A DNA stretch of 64,000 nucleotides from Oryzias latipes (taxonomy: Eukaryota > Chordata > Actinopteri > Beloniformes > Adrianichthyidae): the NCBI RefSeq assembly GCF_002234675.1, contig NC_019867.2:1258001-1322000 (forward strand). Direction: 5' to 3'. A program made the position numbers and the translations under genes. Shown here piece after piece: positions 4,341 to 62,796 of this stretch (within the stretch, counting starts at the first letter, position 1; every line of letters begins with the position of its first letter). A model generated the notes under the pieces. It was not told the DNA's origin and did no database searches. It saw only the letters and a program-made list of their open reading frames with translations.

Positions 4341-7300
4341 ATGTCCGACCGCGGGACGTTCGACACCAACGTGGTCACCGTGACCCGCTTCGTGATGGAG
4401 GAGGGACGGAGGGCCAAGGGCACCGGGGAGCTGACCACGCTGCTCAACGCGCTGTGCACGGCGGTGAAGGCCATCTCCAGCGCCGTGCGCAAAGCTGGGA
4501 TCGCGCACCTGTGAGAGACACGCGCACACTCTCGAACATGCATACCTTTAAAAAACATCCGTGACATGGGTGGATGTCACCTGCGCGGCGTAAACTGGAG
4601 GTTCAGGTTGACTCAGAATACCTGACAGACCACGCCCACTGGCAGGTTTAACCTGGGAGCCGAGATCCCGTTTCCTTTCACCTGTGATGACGTAGGGCCT
4701 TCTTCAGGTTCGGCGACCAGGTTAGGTTTTGGAGGCGAGCCGTGTGTGACCACAAACGGTTCCGTTTGAGGGTCAAAGCCACGCGCTAGTTTCGTTTCTG
4801 GACAAAAATCTGCGTCCAGATTGAGACACGTGAACACAACTGGTTAGTGGCAGGAAAGGGAATCAAACCAACAACTAGCAGAAAAGTTTAGGTTAACTAC
4901 AAGTAAACCTAAAAGTGAGGCAATACTCGAAGTTTACTTTTAATACACTATTGTAAACTTAAAATGTTCCAATTTAGTGTGAAGAAGTGTTCAGTTAGTA
5001 TACTTCCTATGGTACAAGTACATGGCCTGTAGCATACTTGCTATACTTGTACTCAAATACAAAGTACACTTCAAGTGTAGTACTGTTTGCTGAGGGAAAC
5101 TTTAATTTAGTCACTTTTTAGAAGTAAAACATTTCAGTTGATTTTTTTTGAGTTAAAGTAAAAATAAAGTAGCTGGGTGAGTCTGGCAGCGCCGTGACCC
5201 CGAAAGGCTTCAAGAGGTTTAAGAAGATGGATGGATGGAATAAATAAATACAAAGTGTTTGTATTGTAACTGTACTATGCTGTTATATTCGTGATGATGT
5301 CACTGAATGGCATTTTGATTCAGATCTCATTTTTGTGTAGAATATACTGAACAAAAGCACATTTATTAATAACATTGTAACTCTGAAGTTTAACCGTTTT
5401 TCTTTTTTTTTTTTTCAAATTAGCTCAGGTAAAGTAAAATGTCAAAGTAGTTTTCAAAAAGTTTTTGAGCTAATTGTAACCTAAATAACTCAACGTTCAT
5501 CTCCAAACCAAGTTATTTATTTTGTGCATCTGTTTAAAAAATGACTGGTTTTGGTTAAACAAAGAAAAATAAAAACATGTTGCTGTTTGTTGGATGTTTG
5601 TTTTAAAGACATTTTCCATTTTCCTGTCAGTTACGGCATCGCCGGCAGCACCAACGTGACGGGCGACCAGGTGAAGAAGCTGGACATTCTGTCCAATGAC
5701 ATGGTCATCAACGTCATCAAGTCCTCCTTTACTTCCTGCGTTCTGGTGTCTGAGGAAAACGAGAAGGCCATCATCGTGGAGCCGGATAAACGGGTACGTG
5801 TCAGAGCGGCGGCGCAGACGGGGGTCAAACCGACGAGCCGCGACGCTCAGGTTTCACCAAGAAAAGACTTATTGCAAAAACTGTTTGGCAATTTGAAGCA
5901 GAAAGTTCCTGTTTTTCTGAAGGAACCCGTTTTATTTATTTTTTTGTCTGTGGCTCAATCTTGACACCCCCCCCCCCCACCCACCCACCCACACACACAC
6001 ACACAGCCTTTGATCAAAGTCAGTCTGAAAACTCCAGGCCTTCAGAGCCGCTGGCACCACTTTCAGACATTCCTGCCTCCGCTCCACCGTTCTGTCAGGC
6101 GTGTTCATCATCATAGTGGGACGCTATGAGGGCAGTTGGAGAAACCCATGCCGCCCTCCCCCACCCCTGACTTGACACCCAAAGTTAATTTCTACAACTT
6201 CCTGCTTGAAACTGCTTTTTATTGTGAAAGGAGCCAGATCAGTTCATCGGGTAACCACTAGAGGGGGCGTTTCCACAAGATGGAGCGTCCACGTTAATGT
6301 CAAAGTGGTGCAGATGCCTGTAACAAATGAGCATTTGATGCCCCTGGGACCTGGATGGATGGATGGATGATGGATGGATGGATGGATGGATGGATGAAAG
6401 CCTTGGCCTTTAGACGGACTGTAGAGACATTTAAACCACTTTTATCTGCTAGAAATGTGAAGAGCTCTGGCCAAATAGAAACTTTTTTACCAAGAAGAAC
6501 AAAAGACTAAATAACTAAAATAAAAGTTAAAATACAAAGGAACAAGTTATTAATTATTGAACAAAGTTAGAATAAGGTTTATGCTGCTGTTTAAGGACTT
6601 GGAGTTATGAAGTAATGTTCCTACAGGTCCTATTTTCTGAAGTTCAAAGTTTACAGAAGGAAAAATATCCGAACTGGATGAATCAACATGTCATGATGTC
6701 ACTCCGGTTTTTACTGGATGTACATTTCACTCATATTTTGATAGTTTTAATAGTCTTTCATTGTGACAGGAGTCTCCCCTTAAACATGAAGAACAATTAT
6801 GTTCTTTATGAAGCAGCAGAACTGAGCTAAACCTGGACGTTGAAGTCAAATCCTCTGAATTTCAGCTGGAACTTTATTTTTCAGGGTAAATACATCGTCT
6901 GCTTCGATCCTCTGGATGGCTCCTCCAACATCGACTGTCTGGTGTCGATTGGAACGATCTTCAGCATTTACAGGAAGGTAGGACTCTGGATGGAAAGGTC
7001 TGGTCTCTGTGGAGGAAGCTTCACTTCAACCGTACCAGACGGCAGACTCATCATTTGGAGTTGACTGGGACACCAAACGTCCTTCCAGGAGGATCTTCGG
7101 TAATCAGACGTTTCCCGCTCTGTTCTGCAGACCACAGACGACGAGCCGTGTGAGAAAGACGCTCTGCAGCCGGGCAGGAACCTGGTGGCGGCGGGTTACG
7201 CCCTGTACGGCAGCGCCACCATGATCGTTCTCTCCACCGGCCAGGGAGTCAACTGCTTCATGCTGGACCCGGTCAGTGCGCTCCGTCCCGGTCTGCTGCA

Positions 7301-10097
7301 GGGTTTCCATCTTCTCATTTTGTTTGATCTCAACGTCAGGCGATCGGCGAGTTCATCCTGGTGGAGCGCGACGTGAGGATCAAAAAGCGGGGCAACATTT
7401 ACAGCCTGAATGAAGGCTACGCCAGGGACTTTGAGCCGGCCGTCACCGAGTACCTACAGAGGAAGAAGTTCCCTGAGGTGACCGGCATTCACACCACCCA
7501 GCACCTCCAAAAACCTCCCTCACGTTGTCGTTCTTGAACCTCTGCAGGACGGCAGCGAGCCGTACGGATCGCGCTACATCGGCTCCATGGTGGCGGACGT
7601 CCACCGGACGCTCATGTACGGAGGAATCTTTCTGTACCCAGGAAATGCCAAGAACCCAAAGGGGAAGGTGAGCTCCCACTGCAAACCCCTCACCTCGCCT
7701 TCATCCCTCACAGATTTGAACCTGTGACACGGTGTCAAACCACATTCAGGAGGGCTTTATTTTGAACATGATAAGCCAGCTGTGCGGATGCCGCAGTCTG
7801 AGCTTTTATTGTGAAAGTTTATTCAGTGAAACCTTCAACAGCAGGTTTACCTCAAATGAGCTTTGAACTCTGTTTTCCTGTTTCCTAAAATGTTTGACCA
7901 TGATCTATTATGTTTATTGGGCTGAATATATGAGGTGAAACTGGAGAATCCCGTATAATCATAGCCCCACCTCTTTGCTTAACAGTTTAGCTTCATCTGG
8001 TCTTCAGATGTTGAAGCAGCAGTCCCGTGGTTTGTTCACATGCCGTTTTGTGAGCCTCATTCATGCTTTTTTTTTTTTTTTTCTTTCGGTGCTCATCAAA
8101 CAAACACTGTTTTTCATGAACTTCAACTTTAAAAGGCTCCGTTCAGCCTCGGGGTCCAACCATCGGAGTCCGACCATGGGGGTCCTTCGTGGTCTGACTT
8201 TGGAGTAAATGTGTTAGGATGTGAACCGAAGAAGATTCTGATCTGATCCAAACGTCTTTGAGTCGTGAAAATGGCTTCTTTGTGTGGTGTGGTGTTTTTA
8301 TGGAGCTCCACATCACTTCACATTGGCTATTTTCCACAACAGTTCTGTTTTCCTTCTACAGTCGGAGTCTGATTTAGTTTTACTCCCATGGGTCACCAGC
8401 TTTTGTGGCACTTTATTCTCCGTGAAGGTTAATGTTTTTTTTCTTGATCAAATCAACTTACACCAAACTTTATTTGCCAGCTTTTTCATCCACAGGATTC
8501 AGTTATGGTTGAACTGGTATTTATAGATATGTAGTTATACATAAACAAATACAAAGTATAATATAACTAAAAAGTTAGACAGAAAAGAGAAAAAAGGTTC
8601 CCTCCGTCCCACCCGAGGCTCTTAAATGAGATGAAGGAACACTAAATAGAAAGAATGATTGATAACAGTCTCAATTTCTCACATCAAACTCCAAAGGTAA
8701 ATACTTTCACATATGCAATAAGGGGTTCCATGTCACCGAACATTTTTGTTGGGTTGATCGGTGCCTGAGCTTTTTCCAAAGGCAGGAAGGAAAGTAACTC
8801 TTTGAACCATTGGGAGACGGAAGGAGATCAGATCAGATGGAATAAGATCCGTCTACGTGTGAGTAGCAGGCAAATGCGATGGCATTTTCTTGGGTTTTGT
8901 TTGCTTCATGTTGAGGTGTCATAATTCCAGAAATACCGAACTGGAAGTCAAATCTTTACCATAGATGCGGGATAGGACCTGAAAGAGATTCCCCCAGTAA
9001 TTATGGGGGTTGGGGCAGGACCAAACCATGTGGCCCTCAGTCCAAACCTGATTTTTAAAGTAGTTTTTCTACAGACGTGACTCTGTGGTGAAGCTCAGAG
9101 TTTCCAAACGTTCTTTCCTCACATCCGTGAGTCTCAGCTGATGGAGACAAAACCTCCTGTTACCCAAACGACAGGATTGAATCACCGTGTTCTGTTTTGG
9201 CGGGGGGCGGGGGGTTAGGCAAGAGTCTTTTTTGATTGAAACATCTGTATATGTCAGTGCAGCAGAGGACGAGGAAGGAGAACCTCCACCCACTGTTTTA
9301 GTCTAAGTCTGATGACGCCGTTTTTAGCCAAACCCTAAAAATGTGTCGTTTTCTAGAACATAGTTTCTGCAGAGCGGCAGAAGTTCATTAGAAATTCCCC
9401 TCTGAGTTGGTGCAAAGGGTCTGTCTGTCTCACTGTTGCTGAGAGCTCTCTGTTTACACTCTCTCTAGCTAGCTTACGGCCCCTCACCCCCTCCCACCAA
9501 CCAAACGTTAGCGGTTCAACAGAAACAGCAGCAACATCAGATCCATCCATCCGTCCAGTTCTGATCCAGATTCCAGCTCAGACCAGGAAAACAAAGACGT
9601 TCATGGATCTGTTGGTCTACAGGTGGAGGATCAGAAAGGGGCGGAGCTTGGAGACTGTGGCCCCGCCCAGAGTATTTTCTATGTCATTCTCAACTCCAAT
9701 TCATCTGCTACTGATTCACAATTTCAATAAAAATACTTAGAAATACAGTTTTATTTTAAGCCTAATTTTCTTTATAAATGACTTCCATCAGAAAAATGCT
9801 ACAAATACCCCCCCCCCCCCTCACTGGAGTGAGGCTTCAATTTAGGTATTTTTTGATGAGGTGCAATGTGGAGGAATTGACCTCTGACCTTCTTCTTCTT
9901 TGAAGCTGCGACTCCTGTACGAGGGCAAGCCTATGGCGTTCATCATGGAGCAGGCGGGGGGCATGGCCTCCACCGGCTTCGAGAACATCCTGGACATCCA
10001 GCCGGAGAGCATCCACCAGCGCGCCCCGGTGGCGATGGGCTCCCCCGAGGACGTCCTGGAGTACATCGCCATCTGCCAGAAGCACGCCAAGAAGTGA
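4341..10097 (+). CDS. fbp1: fructose-1,6-bisphosphatase 1 (liver type)
   Basis: It hydrolyses fructose-1,6-bisphosphate to fructose-6-phosphate and Pi, a rate-limiting cytosolic step of gluconeogenesis. The coding exons are 4341-4510, 5631-5793, 6885-6977, 7131-7271, 7340-7477, 7548-7667 and 9906-10097, all GT-AG. They total 1017 nt, or 338 residues, the same as mammalian FBP1. The protein starts [10 protein letters not shown]. It keeps the AMP-site loop KGTGELT, the dynamic-loop Tyr (HLYGIAG), [10 protein letters not shown] with the liver-type Gln, SEENE metal ligands, DPLDGSSN metal/substrate motif, IYRK with the AMP-contacting Arg, and MEQAGG with the catalytic Glu. Introns 1, 2 and 6 are long and repeat-rich. 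A poly(A) signal lies at 10289. Liver rather than muscle type is clear from [10 protein letters not shown] and GDQ; the teleost a/b paralogue cannot be decided here. Confidence 0.97.
5168..5240 (+). repeat. SINE tail fragment in fbp1 intron 1
   Basis: The segment reads AGCTGGGTGAGTCTGGC, then GCCGTGACCCCGAAAGG, and ends in GATGGATGG. This matches the 3' tail of the tRNA-derived SINE family seen elsewhere in the window; the head is missing. Confidence 0.55.
5967..6006. repeat. simple repeat: poly(C), (ACCC)n and (CA)n
   Basis: A run of ten C is followed by CCCA units and an ACACAC tract, in fbp1 intron 2. Confidence 0.9.
6353..6397 (+). repeat. (GGAT)n microsatellite
   Basis: About eleven GGAT units, interrupted once by a GGATGATGG slip, in fbp1 intron 2. 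Such arrays are often SINE tails in fish. Confidence 0.9.
8545..9060 (-). mobile_element. L1-like LINE ORF2 fragment (C-terminal part), antisense
   Basis: Translation of the minus strand around 9040-8930 gives [20 protein letters not shown] followed by [13 protein letters not shown], ending at a stop. This resembles the C-terminal region of L1/Tx1-type ORF2, where a HMxWSCP-type motif precedes W/F-rich sequence. Further downstream codons (e.g. [15 protein letters not shown]) continue the resemblance with stops. It is a decayed fragment in fbp1 intron 6, opposite to the gene. Confidence 0.6.
9310..9720. repeat. interspersed repeat, family also at about 20695-20850 and 60147-60250
   Basis: TTTTTAGCCAAA..., then TGTCGTTTTCTAGAACATAG and TTTCTGCAGAGCGGCAG, recurs with similar order at the other two places. 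The downstream half contains GGCCCCGCCCAGAGTATTTT, with a counterpart in the ctsl intron copy. The family name is not known to me. Confidence 0.5.
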
Positions 10098-11142: not shown

Positions 11143-14100
11143 ATGTCGGACCAGTCCCAGTTTGACCCAGACGTGTGGACCCTGACCCGGTTCATCATCG
11201 AGACGGGCCGGCAGGCCAAGGGGGCCACGGGGGAGCTGACCCAGCTGATCAACGCCATGCTGACGGCCATCAAAGCCATCTCCTCTGCCGTACGCAAAGC
11301 CGGCCTGGCCCACCTGTGAGTGGAAATGACGGTTCAGCGTCCGTGAAGAGTGAAGGTCAAGACATTTACTGCTGCAAGGCGATCTGTCTGTGACCCCCCA
11401 CGCATGCACACGGGGAGAGGTCAGCCTGCAGGACGGCCTGAGTTCGGACTCCTGCAGGACGGCCTGAGTTCAGACTCCTGCAGGACGGCCTGAGTTTAGA
11501 CTCCTGCAGGACGGCCTGAGTTCAGACTCCTGCAGGACGGCCTGAGTTCAGACTCCTGCAGGACGGCCTGAGTTTAGACTCCTGCAGGACGGCCTGAGTT
11601 TAGACTCCTGCAGGACCGCCTGAGTTCAGACTCCTGCAGGACGGCCTGAGTTCAGACTCCTGCAGGACGGCCTGAGTTTAGACTCCTGCAGGACGGCCTG
11701 AGTTTAGACTCCTGCAGGACGGCCTGAGTTCAGACTCCAGCAGGACGGCCTGAGTTCAAACTCCTGCAGGACGGCCTGAGTTTAGACTCCTGCAGGACCG
11801 CCTGAGTTCAGACTCCAGCAGGACGGCCTGAGTTCAAACTCCTGCAGGACGGCCTGAGTTCAGACTCCTGCAGGACGGCCTGAGTTCAGACTCCTGCAGG
11901 ACGGCCTGAGTTCAGACTCCTGCAGGACGGCTTGAGTTCAGACTCCTGCAGGACGGCCTGAGTTTAGACTCCTGCAGGACGGCCTGAGTTTAGACTCCTG
12001 CAGGACGGCCTGAGTTCAGACTCCTGCAGGACGGCCTGAGTTCAGACTCCTGCAGGACCGCCTGAGTTCAGACTCCTGCAGGACGGCCTGAGTTCAGACT
12101 CCTGCAGGACGGCCTGAGTTTAGACTCCTGCAGGACGGCCTGAGTTTAGACTCCTGCAGGACCGCCTGAGTTCAGACTCCAGCAGGACGGCCTGAGTTCA
12201 AACTCCTGCAGGACGGCCTGAGTTCAGACTCCTGCAGGACGGCCTGAGTTCAGACTCCTGCAGGACGGCCTGAGTTCAGACTCCTGCAGGACGGCTTGAG
12301 TTCAGACTCCTGCAGGACGGCCTGAGTTCAGACTCCTGCAGGACGGCCTGAGTTTAGACTCCTGCTGGTTACTGCTGGATTCTCTGAACACAGAATCAGC
12401 ATCACAGTCTTTCTTTCACTGAACATGTTCCAGATCTTCTTTTCCAGAATTTTTGAGCTACTTTTGTCACAAATGAAACTGAGTTTGAGCAACTTGTTGA
12501 CACGCAGCTTTATGTTTGCGGAGCAGAACCTGCAGAAAAGAGGATTTTTTAAAACAAACTCCATTAGCGGAGGTCAGCTGAGCTTTCTGCACTCAGCTCA
12601 CCAAACAGAACGAAGATAAAGCTTTTCTGCTGCTGTTGCTTGCAGGCAGGGCTTGGCGGGGGCAGTGAACGTGACGGGGGACGACGTGAAGAAGCTGGAC
12701 GTGCTGTCCAACGACCTGGTCATCAACATGCTGCGGGCGTCCTACAGCACCTGCTGCTTGGTGTCCGAGGAGAACAAGGAGATCATCATCACTCCTAAAG
12801 ACAAGCGGGTGAAAATCTGTTCCCCCTCTATGACTTCAAGCTTCTCTGTCCTGGGGAGATGGTGGGGGTCAGTTACCAGCAAACTGGAGTCTGACAAAAT
12901 ATTTGTGAGATGGAGAAGGAAGACCAAACCAATGTTTCCCCCTTTGTTCTTTTCAAAATAAGACTTTAAATTTTCTCATGTAAATGTGAGGACTTTATGA
13001 CTTCCGTTGTAAAAACCTCTTCAGGGCAGTTTATCTCCTCAGATACAGGTGAGTGCAGGTGAGCAGGGGGGTTATCAAACCTTTCCTTCAGGCGTCACTA
13101 ATAAACAAATTAAAAAACATGCAAAACTGTAAAACTACTGCGAAGCACGGGGGTGGCAGCAGCATGGTGTGGGACTTTTCTGTAACTGCAATTGTGTAGC
13201 AGTTTTGACAAAAAAAAAAATTGACACAAAAGTGGTGCAGAAATATTAAATCGGTTCAGTCTGAAAGTGGAACCGGAGGCTGTGTTTGTGTAAATAAAGA
13301 AGCGTCATGTTTGTTGCCATGACGCTCATGATGTGTCGTCACTCCACGTGGTTTGGTGTTGTTTTCAGGGGAAGTACGTGGTCTGCTTCGACCCTCTGGA
13401 CGGCTCAAGTAACATCGACTGTTTGGCCTCAATCGGCACCATATTTGCCATCTACAAGCGGGTGAGTCTGAAGGCTGCAAACCAGCAGCAAAAGCCACCG
13501 AAAGTTAGATTTGTCATTCACTGAATCATTTCTAACACCAATATTCATTTTGCTCTAAACATGTGGGAAAATCAGCAAAAATGTTGGTTTCTTTTCTTTC
13601 AAATGCATCTCATGACAAACTAGCAGAGGGGACAGGATTTCTAATCCACTTCCAGCCATGAACCACTGCAGCCACTAGAGGGCGCTGCTGTCCGGTTATT
13701 TATCTTCAGTTTGTTTCCAGCTGACAGACTCGAAGCTGCTTCACTTCAGGGTTCACTCCGTTTCTGATTGACATGTAATAAAGTAAATGGTTGTGTCGTT
13801 CATGCTGAGAACACAGATGAGTTGGGGGGGGGGGGGGGGGGGGGGGACTTTGTTGCCACAACGTCCAGCTCATGGCCTCTGAGATGAGGGAGTTGGTGAT
13901 TGGTTTTTTAAACTTGTCCTGTCCAACAGCTGAGAGCTGAAAGCCTCTTGTGTTGGACAGATTTTAATGTTACAACATGGGCTATGAATCTTCGGACACA
14001 CCAGAGGTATATTTGAATAAACCCCTTTTATAATTTAGGCTAAACGTTATTCATCTTAATTATATTTGTAACAGTTTTTTGTTACAGAGGAACAGGCTCC

Positions 14101-17100
14101 TCTGTGCGTCCAGGACCAACAGACTCCTCCCTGAGAGGAATGCGGTCTCAGGAGCTGCTGGATCCTGAAGGATTTCCGCATTTAGCCTAAATTTCTGATC
14201 TTCCTGACCTCAGGTTTCCGACGGGGAGCCAACGGAGCAGGACGCTCTGCAGCCGGGACGCAGCATGGTGTGTGCGGGTTACGCCCTGTATGGCAGCGCC
14301 ACGCTGGTGGCCCTCAGCACCGGAGCCGGCCTCAACTTCTTCATGCTGGACCCTGTGAGTCCCTAGACCCCCCCATGTGGTTCCAGGTCGTGGGTTTTGT
14401 CTCTTCTTTCCCCCACAGCTGTCCTGGACTGAAGGTCCAGGTTGTTGGCACAATTCTTCTTTCTGCACCTTTGAGCAAAAACCTGACTCACAAATGAAAA
14501 CATTTGCACACGCCTGGTTCCTGGTGAAAACGAATTTTAGTCATAACAACCCCCCCCCCCCCACACCCATTTTATACATGTGCCACCAGGTTAAGTCTAC
14601 AGTCAAGTTTCTTTGACCTTTGACCCTGGAAAGAGCCCGCCATCTTGAATTGTACCTAAAAAAATCCTCTTTAGCAGCAGATTCAAATTTAAACTCTTTC
14701 CAGGGACTTTAATTGATCGCGTTCTAAACTCTGCGAGCATCGCTGGGAAGCTTCTTGGGTAAAAACTTGAAGTAGGAATTCTAGATTATAAACGGCGTTT
14801 TAACGGCGTTAAAAGCTGAGAGTTTGATCCAAACGTGACGTTTCCCGGTTGTTTGCACATTTTTCACCAGAATGTTTTGAAAATTTAACACAGGAATCGT
14901 TGGCTTAAGCTGAACGAAACAACATGGAAAAACTACACGACCATGTTAGGAATGTGGGCGTGGTCAACAAAAAACCTCCACTGCCAAGGAAATCCAAAAG
15001 TTCCCTTTTTCCGATTCTTCTAAAAATTGCGTAGATCTGTTCGTCATCCCCAGGAGATAGAAAAATAAAATGGTTGCTATGGAGATAAAACCAACAGAAA
15101 TGAATTTGTCACATGCAGCTGAAACTTCCTGTTGTTTTCTGTCAGGCGATCGGCGAGTTCATCCTCATCGAGAGGAACGTGAGGATCAAGCAGAAGGGAA
15201 AGATCTACAGCCTGAACGAGGGCTACGCCAAGTTCTTCCATCCTTCCGTCAACGAGTATCTCAGACACAAGAAGGACCCAGAGGTTAGCGCCCCCCCACC
15301 ACCTTCCTGTCTGTCCCGGCAGAACCGGCCCCCGGACCGGGACGGGCACTGATGTTCTGCTGGAAGCGTTTGGGTCAAACCAACGTTGATCCTCCAGAGA
15401 GGAGCTTAGTTTCCACAGACGGACGTCAGGAAACGTTGTCCTTTGTCGTCGCTGTGAGGTTAAAGTTGAAAGAGAACCTCCTTCTTCATCTGAAAATGAG
15501 AGTGAAGCTGGGGGGCGTCACGGGACCGCTGGTTCCTGGAGACGACAGGAAGCTGCTGAGCTGCAGAAAATGCTGCAGGACGCTCAGCGGCTTTTCAGCC
15601 TGGTCACACGCCGGACGCCGCTCATCGTAGCCACGCCTCCCCTCCTTCAGCACTGAGTCACCTGATCCTGAGTCTCAGACACAGAGGTCAAATGGCTTGA
15701 CGGCCCCCCCAACATGCATTTCATCACCAACAAAGGGTTAAAAGTCACTGGTTACCTGTTCAGTTCGGCAGTCCTGCAGACGGACTCGGGCAGCAAAATG
15801 GAACCAGGGAGGTTAGAAAAAAACGCCAAAAAGGCCAGGGCACGTGGGGGGGGGGGGGGGGGCGCTGTTTGTTTTACTTAGAGTCTGAATATTTAAGGTA
15901 AAAATGTCCACAAATTCTGTCTGTGGACAAAAACAATCTGAACTAGTTTTGCTTCAGTGGGTCAGGCTCAGGAAATCCTTCTATTTGCCCCCCCAGCGAG
16001 CGCATGGCCCCCGTCACACTGAACCTGTAGCCTCACAGCGCATGACTCCTGTTCTTAACCACCGCTGCAGGTTTGAATCCGGAGCTCAAAGGTTGAGTTC
16101 AGGTTCAGCTTGTGAGCTCCGTCACTGTTTGTTTGTTCCAGCTGCTGCGGTGGACTCTGCCCCCCCCGACACACATGTGCTGGGTCAGCAAAACCAGGTC
16201 ACGTCTCGGATCCTTTAGGACAGGGGTGTCAGACTTCAGCCTTGGAGGGCCGACCTCCTGCTGGTTTTCCAGAAAAGCTGCCTCACCTGCTGCAGATTAC
16301 CTGGATCAGGTGTGTTCAGCCAATGAGGAGCTTCAACGGCTTCAATGGTTGGAAACCATGTTGGGTCCCTCGAGGCCTGGACCCCCTACCTTTAGGACCA
16401 GCAGGTCTTTACATCAGATCCTTGCCAGGCTCTCCCAGGAAAACTGAAATGATCAAAAAAACAGATTTAACGTCCTATTCAGCGACTGAAGGTCAAAACT
16501 TTCAGTCAAGCTGGAAACCGAAGGACGTTCTGTCCCGATTCACTAATTTCCTGTCGTGAACCAGGAAATCCCTTTGGCCTTTCAGGATGTGAACCTAAAC
16601 ACGTCAGTCTGGACTTCTGCAAAAACAGAAACTCTGCTTTTACTGCTGACTGAAAAAGTACTGGGCTTTCATCCATCCTAATCCAGGGGTTCGAGTCCCA
16701 GGGCAGCAGCCTTGACTGGAGGCATGACGCTCTTCCTGTTAAAGTTGTGAACAGAATCATGAAGAAATTCCAACCTGGAGGTGTCCCCACTTCTCCCTGG
16801 AGTCGTTTCTCCTTCGTTCGGTTGTTACCTTCAGCTGCGCCTCCTGCTGAGGGTTCTGGAAGTGTCCCTCCTGCTGAGGGTTCTGGAAGTGTCCCTCCTG
16901 CTGACGGTTCTGGAAGTGTTCGTCCTGCTGACGGTTCTGGAAGTGTCCCTCCTGCTGACGGTTCTGGAAGTGTCCCTCCTGCTGAGGGTTCTGCAGAACT
17001 GCAGCTCAGACTAAACCTAACAAACTGAAAAAGAGACCCTGGAACCTCAGCCCCGCCCCCTTTTTCACAGCCAGGAGCCGCCAGGTCCTGGTGAAACCAG

Positions 17101-17961
17101 GGTGGACCTGCTCCATCCAGAACGTCTAGTCAGAACCGCACTGTCTGATGAGGTCTTTGTGTTCAGAGAAACTGGGTTTGGATCAGAACCTTGACTTAGT
17201 TCTGGTGTGGGTCACATCAGTCACGTGGACTGAAGGTTTACCTCCAGTTTTCTGAAGAACAACCAGAACCACAGAAGTTCTGAGTCTGAATGTTCTGCAG
17301 ATTCTGACCCAGGTCAACTCTGTAAAACGTTTCATCTTCAGTCTGTGTTTTTTTTTAACCTTTCTTCAGCTTCAGAAATGATGAAGCAAACTGGCGTCCG
17401 TTCACTTTGAACCCCCCTCCCTCCCCTACAGGATGGCAGCGCCCCCTACGGCGCTCGGTATGTGGGCTCCATGGTGTCCGACGTGCACCGCACCATCGCC
17501 TACGGGGGCATCTTCATGTATCCAGCCAACGAGAAGAGTCCCAAAGGAAAGGTGAGCGGAACAACCAGAACCAACATGGAGGAGCTTCTCCTCGGAACCA
17601 GAACCCACCTGCAGAAACATTTCGTGTCCATGAGTGAGGGGGCTGCTGGGAAAGGCCTTTTTGTTTAAAAATACTCCATAACAGCCGAGAGTTTGATCCA
17701 AACCTCAACAGTGTCTGGACAGAAGAGTTTGTCCCTGCAGAAGTCCTTCATTGGGTTTGTGATGTTCTTCTGCAGCTGCGACTCCTGTACGAGTGCAACC
17801 CCATCGCCTTCCTGGTCGAGCAGGCGGGGGGCCTCGCCACCACCGGGACCCAGAGGGTCCTGGACGTCCAGCCGGAGACCATCCACCAGCGTGTGCCCTT
17901 CGTGGTCGGCTCACCTGACGACGTAAACGAGTACCTGTCCTTCGTCCAGAGGTTCTCCTAA
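11143..17961 (+). CDS. fbp2: fructose-1,6-bisphosphatase 2 (muscle type)
   Basis: It catalyses the same FBPase reaction as its neighbour; the muscle isoform acts in glyconeogenesis from lactate. Coding exons are 11143-11315, 12646-12808, 13369-13461, 14214-14354, 15146-15283, 17432-17551 and 17776-17961, or 1014 nt and 337 residues. Muscle-type identity is shown by [36 protein letters not shown] and TLVALSTG. Catalytic and metal residues are kept ([22 protein letters not shown]). Odd points: one extra Ala in the AMP loop (KGATGELT instead of KGTGELT), Gln for the dynamic-loop Tyr (HLQGLAG), Lys for the AMP-contacting Arg (IYKR for IYRK), and Asp where muscle FBPases have the Ca2+-sensitivity Glu (VTGDDVKK). 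The exon 5 donor is GTTAGC. Introns carry a 26-bp minisatellite, long G runs and a MITE. Confidence 0.96.
11425..12366 (+). repeat. 26-bp minisatellite, about 36 copies
   Basis: The unit is built from CTGCAGGACGGCCTGAG plus TTCAGACTC. Variants are TTTAGACTC, TTCAAACTC, GGACCGCC, CTCCAGCAGG and GGCTTGAG. It occupies most of fbp2 intron 1. The variant pattern repeats with a 364-bp period (14 units). Confidence 0.97.
13824..13846 (+). repeat. poly(G) run, 23 nt
   Basis: An uninterrupted run of 23 G on the sense strand of fbp2 intron 3. The length may be unreliable in the assembly. Confidence 0.9.
15846..15862 (+). repeat. poly(G) run, 17 nt
   Basis: An uninterrupted run of 17 G on the sense strand of fbp2 intron 5. 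Confidence 0.9.
16221..16389. mobile_element. hAT-type MITE with 8-bp target duplication
   Basis: It starts CAGGGGTGTCAGACTTCAGC and ends GGCCTGGACCCCCTAC, imperfect inverted ends of a common fish non-autonomous family. Direct 8-bp duplications CTTTAGGA flank it at 16213-16220 and 16390-16397, as expected for hAT transposition. It lies in fbp2 intron 5 and has no coding capacity. Confidence 0.8.
16846..16997 (+). repeat. 27-bp minisatellite, about 5.5 copies
   Basis: The unit is CCTGCTGAGGGTTCTGGAAG plus TGTCCCT, with GAGG/GACG and CCT/CGT variants. The 27-bp period keeps a frame open (PAEGSGSVP), which creates a spurious open frame. It lies in fbp2 intron 5. Confidence 0.95.
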
Positions 17962-19801: not shown

Positions 19802-21775
<1,974 letters not shown>

Positions 21776-28387: not shown

Positions 28388-52947
<24,560 letters not shown>

Positions 52948-55164: not shown

Positions 55165-56455
55165 CAAAAAGAAGAAGCAGACAATCAGAGGAACACGGGA
55201 CAATTAAAGGAACACGGGACAATCAGAGAAACACGGGACTATCAGAGGAACACGGGACAATTAAAGGAACACGGGACAATTAAAGGAACACGGGACAATC
55301 AGAGGAACACGGGACAATTAAAGGAACACGGAACAATTAAAGGAACACGGGACTATCAGAGAAACACGGGACTATCAGAGGATCCCGGGACTATCAAGAG
55401 GAACCCGGGACAATCAGAGGAACACTGGACAATTAGAGGAACACGGGACAATTAAAAGAACACGAGACAATAAGAGGAAAACGGGACAATCAGAGGAACA
55501 CGGGACAATCAGAGGAACACGGGACAATTAGAGGAAAACGGGACAATCAGAGGAACACGGGACAATCAGAGGAACACGGGACAATTAAAGGAACACGGGA
55601 CAATCAGAGGAACACGGGACAATTAAAGGAACACGGGACAATTAAAGGAACACAGAACAATTAAAGGAACACGGGACAATTAAAGGAACACGGGACAATT
55701 AAAGGAACACGGGACAATTAAAGGAACACGGGACAATTAAAGGAACACGGAACAATTAAAGGAACACGGGACTATCAGAGGAACCCGGGACTATCAGCGG
55801 AACCCGGGACAATTAAAGGAACACGGGACAATCAGAGAAACACGGGACTATCAGAGGAACCCGGGACTATCAAGAGGAACCCGGGACAATCAGAGGAACA
55901 CGGGACAATTAAAGGAACATGGGACTATCAGAGGAACCCGGGACAATCAGAGGAACACGGGACAATTAAAAGAACACGAGACAATAAGAGGAACACGGGA
56001 CAATCAGAGGAACCCGGGACTATCAGAGGAACATGGGACAATTAAAGGAACACGGGAATATCAGAGGAACACGGGAATATTAGAGGAACACGGGACAATC
56101 AGAGGAACATGGGACAATCACAGGAACACAGGACTATCAGAGGAACCCGGGACAATCAGAGGAACACGGGACAATCAGAGGAACATGGTTCAATTAAAGG
56201 AACACGGGACAATCAGAGGAACACGGGACAATTAAAGGAACACGGGACAATCAGAGCAACACGGGACAATTAAAGGAACACGGGACAATCAGAGGAACAC
56301 GGGACTATCAGAGGAACACGGGACAATTAAAGGAACACGGTACTATCAGAGGAACCCGGGACAATCAGAGGAACCCCAGACAATCAGAGGAACACGGGAC
56401 AATCAGAGGAACCCCAGACAATCAGAGGAACACGGGACAATCAGAGGAACTCTGT
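55165..56455 (+). repeat. 19-bp minisatellite, about 67 copies
   Basis: The unit is GGAACACGGGACAATCAGA or GGAACACGGGACAATTAAA, with ACCCGGGACTATCAGAGG variants, over 1.29 kb. It is the largest tandem array in the window, in the 5' intron (or upstream DNA) of dapk1. Confidence 0.97.
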
Positions 56456-60255: not shown

Positions 60256-62796
60256 GAAAAAGTCACTCCTCACATAATTGACTTTGATCAAACTGGATTC
60301 ATCAAAGGCAGACACTCGGATGACAATGTCCGCAGACTCGTTAACATAATAGACTTTGCCACCATCAAAAACCAGGAAATGACTATACTATCACTGGATG
60401 CTGAAAAAGCCTTTGATAGAGTAAATTGGAAGTTCCTCATTGCTGCCCTCCATAAGTTTGGGTTTGGAGAATCATTCATCAATTGGATCAAAATATTCTA
60501 TCACAACCCCAATGCATCAGTTAGAACTAATAAACAGACTTCAAACAGGTTTTTTCTTGGAAGAGGAACTAGACAGGGTTGCCCACTCTCCCCCTCTCTT
60601 TTTGCAATATTTATCGAGCCTCTAGCTGCAGCAATAAGACAGAATGAGAGTATTAAAGGAATTAAAACCAAACACAGCCATCATAAAATTAGTCTCTATG
60701 CAGATGACATATTACTGTTTTTAAGTAATATACATTCTGTAAATGAAACGGCAACAATCATTAATGAATTCTCTTCTATATCAGACTATTCCATTAATTG
60801 GAATAAATCTGTTTTATTACCACTGAACAGTAATGCGGAGCAAGGACTCACAATACCAGTTAAATCAGGCAATATAAAATATCTAGGTATTTATTTTTCC
60901 CCCAAAATATCAGAACTGGTGCAGCTAAACTACACCCCATTACTGAAAAACATACAGGACGATCTAACACGCTGGACCAACCTGCCTCTGTCCCTTATGG
61001 GCAAGGTAGCCACGGTTAAAATGAAAATCTTACCCAAAGTTAATTATCTCTTCTCAATGATTCCCACACAACCGCCATTAAAATGGTTCAAAACATTAGA
61101 CTCATCCATATCAAGCCTTCTATGGAACAATAAACCTGCAAAAATTAGTCTAAAAACTTTAAAATCTGCAAAAAGCTGTGGAGGATTAGAATTACCTAAC
61201 TTCCACAATTACTTTCTTTCAAATAGATTACAATACATCTTAAAATGGTTAAAAAATAATCCAGAAACCAACTCATGGTTAGACTTGGAACAGGCGTTAT
61301 GTGGAAAGATCAACCTGTCAGATCTTCCATTTATTAGTCAAATAGTTAAAAAACAGGATTGTTTCAAAAGTATTAATATAAATGCCGCTTTAACAGCCTG
61401 GTGGGAATTTCTCAAAATATCAAAATCATCAATTCAACCGTGCAAAATGACACCCATCTGGAACAACCCAGACATCCTCATAAACAAAAAAATTATCCAC
61501 TTCCCAGCTTGGCAAGCAGGGGGCATAAAACAACTAGAGCACATAATTATTGATAGAAGATTCATAACTCCCCAGGAACTTCAAGACAAACATGGAATAT
61601 ATAACTTCTTGGAATATCAGCAACTTAAATCAATTATTACTAAAAAGTTTAAATACAGAGACAACGATTTAAAGCTACCAGATGTAGTTACCACTCTGAT
61701 CAATTTCTCAATGAATAAAACTCTCTCCAAAATATACAAACTTTTATGTAATTTAGATAACAATATTTCACTTCCGACAACAAAATGGGATGCGGATTTG
61801 AGCATCAGCACAGATGAAAGTTTTTGGTCAGAACTTTGTCTAAACACCTTTAAAATGACAAAAAATCCAAATCTGCAGCTAATCCATCTCAAAACTCTTC
61901 ACAGAATTTACTACACTGGACAGAGGATGTTCAAGATGGGTCTCAGTAACTCAGACATTTGTCAGCACTGTGACAGTAATCTACCCGACAATTACATGCA
62001 TGCACTATGGTTCTGCACGCCTGTCCAGGCTCTCTGGCAGCAGGTATGTGCCGATCTATCAGTCTGGCTTAAGGTTTCTATCACAGCTTCACCGTCACTT
62101 TGTGTGCTTGGTGACATGAGTGCCATCAATGTAGAAGGAGGATTAGGCTCTATCATTTTCATAACTCTTTGCATTGCTAAAAAAACTATTTTAATAAATT
62201 GGAAAAGCAAAAAAAATATAAATATAAGTCAACACAGAAATCTGCTGCTTGATCATATCAGCTTGGAAAAAATGTCAGCCCAAAGTTCAAGTAACTTTGA
62301 AAGAATTCGGTCTCTCTGGTCTCCCATAGCCTCCGGTGCCTGGCCGGGGGTGGTGGGGGCTCCGTTGGTCGGGGGGTCGGGTCCGGCGCCTGGGTGGGGC
62401 GGCCTGGGGCGCTGCGTGGTCCTCTGGGCTTGGGTGTGGGGGGGCGTGGTGGGGGGTGAGGTGGTGGTCTGGCTTGGCTTGGGGGGGTGGTCCCTTTGCC
62501 TGTGCTGGGGGGGTTGGCGGGGGGCGCTGCTCGGGGGGGGGCCCAGCGGCGCTGGATGGGCTTCCCGTCTACACCTGGGGCTGGGATCGGCCCTTCCCTG
62601 GCCCTGGGGCGGGACGGGACAACCCTCTTGGGGCCCCCGGTCGCTCTGGGTGTCATCCGCTTCGGCTGCGGGGTCTGGGGGTGGGGTGGAGTGGGGGTCT
62701 TGTCGGCCCTGTCCTGTGGGGGGGCATTCTGGGGGAGGGGGGGGGGGCACTATTGGTACGGGGCAGGGGGGGTTGACGGGTCGGGGTCTCCGCTGA
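60256..62796 (+). mobile_element. L1-like LINE, 5'-truncated ORF2 with reverse transcriptase
   Basis: The frame is open from 60256, before the first Met at 60379, and begins in the RT domain (DFDQTGFIKGRHSDDNVRRL, LDAEKAFDRVNW). It continues with RQGCPLSPSLFAIFIEPLA, the catalytic SLYADDILLF, NWNKSVLLPL and KYLGIYFSP, the thumb, and a C-terminal Cys/His segment (ICQHCDSNLPDNYMHALWFC). The endonuclease and ORF1 are absent, as expected of 5' truncation. No stop or frameshift occurs across about 690 codons to near 62330, so the insertion is fairly recent. After 62330 the frame only stays open because the DNA is G-rich; the true end of the protein is uncertain. Not a host gene. Confidence 0.9.

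Follow-up and report, generated by a model that had tools for sequence, protein, structure and literature searches.

Previous studies attribute the high AMP affinity of human muscle FBPase (FBP2) to Lys20, Thr177 and Gln179, and AMP sensitivity is 22-fold lower in the human FBPase mutant K20E and 11-fold lower in T177M/Q179C (PMC3785478; PMC4822563). They also place Arg140 in contact with the AMP ribose in the human muscle enzyme and describe a “leucine lock” (Leu11, Leu13, Leu190) for human FBP2 only; two FBPase genes are given there as the general state in vertebrates (PMC4822563). Two further residues bear on calcium: the Y57W substitution in human muscle FBPase raises Ki(AMP) from 0.031 to 0.81 uM with catalysis little changed and Ki(Ca) from 0.98 to 21 uM, and Glu69 is needed for high calcium sensitivity, which Glu69-to-Ala lowers (PMC3795747)—though for the AMP effect of Y57W the table implies ~26-fold and the adjoining text says 5–6 fold. 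According to PMC5639204, which cites Gao et al., AMP inhibition requires Ser/Thr31, Lys/Arg112 and Tyr113, yet this rule is not strict, as Leishmania FBPase, with Asp112 and an Arg140 that does not bind AMP, is still weakly inhibited (Ki 63.8 uM; PMC5639204). An I0.5(AMP) of ~0.2 uM is reported for the human muscle enzyme. Within the portions of the literature covered by our search, no report of fish FBP2 residues or kinetics was found. Among more distant relatives, E. coli FBPase is said (by the title of a paper by Hines of 2007) to be inhibited by AMP and, again by title, reportedly has a separate glucose 6-phosphate inhibition site.

Two complete FBPase genes lie on the plus strand of the window, i.e., the 64,000-nucleotide stretch of Oryzias latipes DNA analysed here. 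The upstream gene, fbp1 (4341..10097), has seven exons (4341-4510, 5631-5793, 6885-6977, 7131-7271, 7340-7477, 7548-7667 and 9906-10097) coding for 338 aa, matches Pfam FBPase and FBPase_C, and is 79.8% identical to human FBP1 (317 columns). Downstream of it, fbp2 (11143-17961) codes for 337 aa in a single open frame of seven exons, with all six introns GT-AG; the segment originally flagged, 11143-13461, is its exons 1–3, bounded exactly by the ATG and by the end of exon 3. Since vertebrates generally carry both genes, the duplication is old. Exon 1 (11143..11315) begins with Met and stops two bases into the Leu56 codon, exon 2 (12646..12808) supplies the remaining base, and exon 3 (13369..13461) ends with Lys140-Arg141; the exon 1 translation matches Pfam FBPase, and exons 2 and 3 also have Pfam matches. 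They are followed by exon 4 (14214..14354, carrying Cys161, Thr177 and Ala179), exon 5 (15146..15283, carrying Ile190 and Gln204), exon 6 (17432..17551) and exon 7 with the stop codon (17776..17961).

The first-pass annotation had called this gene a muscle-type FBPase with intact catalytic residues, and both statements hold. The protein scores 252.2 bits against Pfam FBPase (cut-off 34.8) and 162.9 bits against FBPase_C (cut-off 27), its best PDB match is FBPase isozyme 2 (E 1.7e-176; best FBPase 1 chain 7.9e-161), and it shares 76.9% identity with human FBP2 (334 columns) versus 71.0% with human FBP1 (317 columns). Of the 65 positions that distinguish the human isozymes, fbp2 agrees with FBP2 at 33, with FBP1 at 9 and with neither at 23. 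Identity, PDB ranking and diagnostic positions thus all favor FBP2, and “muscle-type” is the right label. None of the 16 catalytic and metal positions scored differs from human FBP2. Apparently, fbp2 is an ordinary-looking, intact muscle-type FBPase gene.

We regard it as probable that this gene encodes a functional muscle-type FBPase that is inhibited by AMP, with lower AMP affinity than the human muscle enzyme and a shifted calcium control. Human FBP2 (PDB 3ifa, 4he0 and 5q0c, the last of which we take to be human) and fbp2 share, besides isozyme type and catalytic residues, Thr31/Lys112/Tyr113, Thr177 and Gln32. They differ by one added residue in the AMP loop, by V17I, K20T, Y57Q, E69D, R140K, A161C, Q179A and K204Q, and, within the leucine lock, by L11W and L190I. 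Three of these differences (the longer loop, Gln57 and Lys140) had been singled out before as signs of weakened or altered AMP inhibition, on a functional map—AMP loop, Arg140 and Tyr57 switch—that stands, e.g., in the Arg140 contact with the AMP ribose and in the effects of Y57W. They do not carry equal weight.

The AMP-phosphate loop reads KGATGELT in fbp2, one Ala longer than KGTGELT in fbp1, as the first-pass annotation had reported; the added codon, GCC at 11224..11226, falls in exon 1 between Gly26 and Thr27 (mammalian mature numbering). The comparison on which that report was based had fbp1 alone as its partner, which gives the insertion no polarity. Our panel has 13 sequences: fbp1 and fbp2 from the window, two human and seven bacterial proteins, and one segment each from yeast and moss. 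Six panel sequences come from plasmid records, hand-picked for differing genera before their residues were seen, from among the matches listed (40 of 226), and some rows are incomplete (human FBP1 starts at position 11, the yeast segment has 94 residues and the moss row is without its N-terminus). Loops of the fbp2 length occur in E. coli FBPase (SHATGELT) and yeast (KNATGDFT). Positions 16 to 31 span 17 residues in 6 of 13 (fbp2, E. coli, Aeromonas, Spirosoma, Cupriavidus and yeast) and 16 residues in only three, fbp1 and both human enzymes; of the remaining four, two have 18 residues, one has 12 and the moss segment is truncated. Within this 13-sequence panel, the short loop is confined to vertebrates. 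Profile matches over exon 1 vary: Pfam aligns 46 residues of fbp2 on 46 positions and 45 of fbp1 on 46, and NCBIfam NF006778 aligns fbp2 46 on 46 with no net gap and fbp1 46 on 47 with one position unfilled, whereas with NF006779 the short loop fits better (fbp2 44 on 43, fbp1 45 on 45).

A derived, damaging insertion was considered and rejected, given the equally long loops of E. coli and yeast and the gap-free Pfam match. As the length is shared with the AMP-inhibited E. coli enzyme, the longer loop is compatible with AMP inhibition, and the extra Ala drops out as an argument for altered regulation; its presence in E. coli and yeast would leave room for at most a weaker AMP and calcium response than in mammals, rather than a new kind of enzyme. 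More generally, a one-residue “insertion” judged against a neighboring paralogue can be a state that is common across the family as a whole.

E. coli class I FBPase (2gq1, 2q8m; the PDB chain was assigned by identity to an E. coli record) shares with fbp2 the ATGELT loop length, a residue other than Tyr at 57, and Thr31/Lys112/Tyr113, but is only 45.0% identical, keeps Arg140 and has Leu57. For PDB chains other than those of human muscle FBPase and E. coli FBPase, the species are presumed. Pattern scans for further relatives gave 138 pattern matches and no relative in viral contigs. In genome contigs there were 44 pattern matches and one relative, an FBPase from Rokubacteria whose AMP site is divergent; the patterns were drawn from two vertebrate proteins and thus missed bacterial FBPases in general.

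The second change, HLQGLAG for HLYGIAG, was also read correctly: the Leu56 codon is split between 11315 and 12646, and exon 2 has Gln57 as its first complete codon. We looked for another junction of exons 1 and 2 nearby that would restore Tyr57, and rejected the idea. Combining 11 donors (11261-11420) with 8 acceptors (12600-12720) gives 88 GT/AG pairs, of which five remain open in-frame through exon 2; none of these five gives Tyr at 57, and the conserved HLxGLAG comes from 11315/12646 only. All 11 donors lie downstream of the Ala codon, so by construction a shifted junction does not remove the Ala either. Within the panel, Tyr57 is limited to vertebrate sequences (3 of 13), with Leu in E. 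coli and Val in yeast. By analogy with the human Y57W mutant, an effect of Gln57 on the AMP and calcium response of fbp2 is plausible. The surrounding loop 52–72 differs at 4 of 21 positions between fbp2 and human FBP2, versus 0 of 21 between fbp1 and human FBP1; this loop has thus diverged more in fbp2, leaving room for fbp2-specific change.

The third change, IYKR for IYRK, is likewise present, Lys140-Arg141 being the last two codons of exon 3. Arg occupies position 140 in 9 of the 12 panel sequences with a letter there, with Lys in fbp2 and moss and Pro in one (the yeast segment stops short). R140K, though conservative, is the strongest of the three arguments for an altered AMP response. 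The moss enzyme (5iz1, which we take to be from a moss species, of chloroplast nature and under redox control) shares Lys140 and Asp69 with fbp2 but lacks Lys112 and Thr27 (Asn and Asp instead), and by analogy with spinach chloroplast FBPase it would be AMP-insensitive. Loss of the AMP-phosphate residues would then mark the AMP-insensitive chloroplast type, and fbp2 has no such loss, as Thr27, Lys112 and Tyr113 are all present; with Thr31, Lys112 and Tyr113 it also has each residue named in the quoted rule for AMP inhibition.

Several regulatory differences go beyond those first flagged. The AMP-hypersensitivity network of human FBP2 is kept at one of three positions in fbp2 (Thr20, Thr177, Ala179; i.e., K20T and Q179A), a network described for human FBP2 only and no requirement for orthology. 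The calcium determinant Glu69 is Asp69 in exon 2, acidic but shorter. Neither had been mentioned in the first-pass annotation. The leucine lock reads Trp11, Leu13 and Ile190, with one of three residues kept and all three hydrophobic, and fbp2 reads KQKGK at the nuclear-localisation motif KKKGK. In its neighbor fbp1, Val13, Thr32, Asn207 and E20/T177/Q179 are encoded, of which Thr177/Gln179 are muscle-like in a liver-type copy.

Taken with the human mutants, these residues suggest how the enzyme may work. AMP would still bind and inhibit via the usual R-to-T switch, with an affinity below that of human muscle FBPase and closer to the micromolar values of the liver enzyme, given the broken Lys20-Thr177-Gln179 network, Lys in place of Arg140 and Gln in place of Tyr57. 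Calcium control would also be shifted, via Glu69-to-Asp and Tyr57-to-Gln. The predicted effects of Gln57, Thr20, Ala179 and Lys140 are extrapolated from other substitutions. Most likely, then, AMP (and perhaps calcium) sensitivity is lower than in the human muscle enzyme but not lost. Of the earlier suggestion that AMP inhibition may be altered, this retains the core, now carried by K20T, Y57Q, R140K and Q179A and relieved of the Ala. If the sensitivities are indeed lowered, fbp2 would offer a natural variant for testing which residues lie behind the large gap in AMP sensitivity that separates the muscle from the liver enzyme, and would also inform the question of how glycogen is rebuilt in fish muscle.

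A stronger version—that selection in the lineage has removed much of the AMP inhibition or re-tuned it, as a metabolic adaptation—we consider unlikely. It can draw on three changes in AMP contacts and switches joined by K20T, A161C and Q179A, on the lowered AMP and calcium sensitivity of human Y57W, on a Lys140 found elsewhere in the panel only in moss, and on the unequal divergence of loop 52–72 in the two copies. Against it, changes are not enriched in the allosteric system. Relative to the overall divergence of fbp2 from human FBP2 (77/334, the inserted Ala not counted), 4 of 14 AMP-site positions taken from papers differ (3.2 expected, P = 0.41), as do 5 of 16 on a longer list that adds positions 26 and 161, the latter added after its difference was seen (3.7 expected, P = 0.30), and 4 of 21 in loop 52–72 (4.8 expected, P = 0.76), in tests of low power. 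Over the 219 columns where fbp1 agrees with both human enzymes, AMP positions are changed in fbp2 at 2 of 11 (P = 0.38) or, on the longer list, 3 of 13 (P = 0.19), the loop at 3 of 18 (P = 0.36) and the union of longer list and loop at 6 of 31 (P = 0.14). A concentration of changes in the AMP site was rejected on these counts. The E. coli/yeast loop length and the retained Thr31, Lys112 and Tyr113 also speak against the stronger version. The catalytic set, with 0 of 16 changed, falls below its expectation of 3.7 (P(<=0) = 0.014). As judged from these counts, the catalytic core appears constrained and the remainder drifting, with no sign of change aimed at the allosteric system; the changes look like ordinary divergence at a regulatory site that is less constrained than that core.

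A related and similarly doubtful possibility is that K20T, Y57Q, E69D, R140K and Q179A together have released the muscle FBPase of this lineage from tight AMP and calcium control. If so, AMP and calcium at concentrations that inactivate the mammalian enzyme would leave it active, which would allow working white muscle to resynthesize glycogen or to run substrate cycles.

Less probable still is a relaxed constraint on the whole copy, with fbp2 drifting toward loss of regulation or function. At 26 positions fbp2 alone departs from a residue common to fbp1 and the two human isozymes, which might be read in this way, but the mirror-image count gives nearly as many for fbp1 (23), the catalytic positions are unchanged, and all exons and splice sites are intact. 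Between the copies, dN is 0.24 and dS 0.83 (dN/dS ~0.29 over 334 codons, an average over both lineages since duplication), which indicates purifying selection averaged over both. With this ratio, the identities of the two copies to their human orthologues and the age of the duplication, the relaxation after duplication proposed in the first-pass annotation finds little support. Finally, a sequencing or assembly error behind the Ala codon or the substitutions is very improbable: the letters rest on one assembly and the Ala codon sits between two runs of five G in a G-rich context (GGCCAAGGGGGCCACGGGGGAG), but an error would have to add exactly three bases net, preserve the frame and happen to produce the known ATGELT form, and the remaining changes are whole-codon substitutions in well-aligned exons.

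Intron 1 of fbp2 holds a 26-bp minisatellite at 11425-12365 (36.2 copies, 95% matches, unit CCTGCAGGACGGCCTGAGTTCAGACT). Convergent with fbp2, at 19802-20647 on the minus strand, two open frames matching Pfam Peptidase_C1 are pieces of what would be a cathepsin-L-like cysteine protease gene. Farther on, 28391-50334 on the minus strand has Death domain, COR-B and ankyrin repeats that pass the Pfam cut-offs, together with a kinase piece that falls short (27 bits vs 31.7), a domain order as expected for a DAPK1-like gene, the gene name being our inference. On the plus strand, 60256-62793 is open for 846 codons from stop to stop and encodes a reverse transcriptase domain (Pfam RVT_1); this is probably a LINE-type element. 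Long open frames of simple tandem peptide repeats, recognized by eye at 38202-38966, 44778-45219 and 55741-56232, are probably translated minisatellites and not genes.
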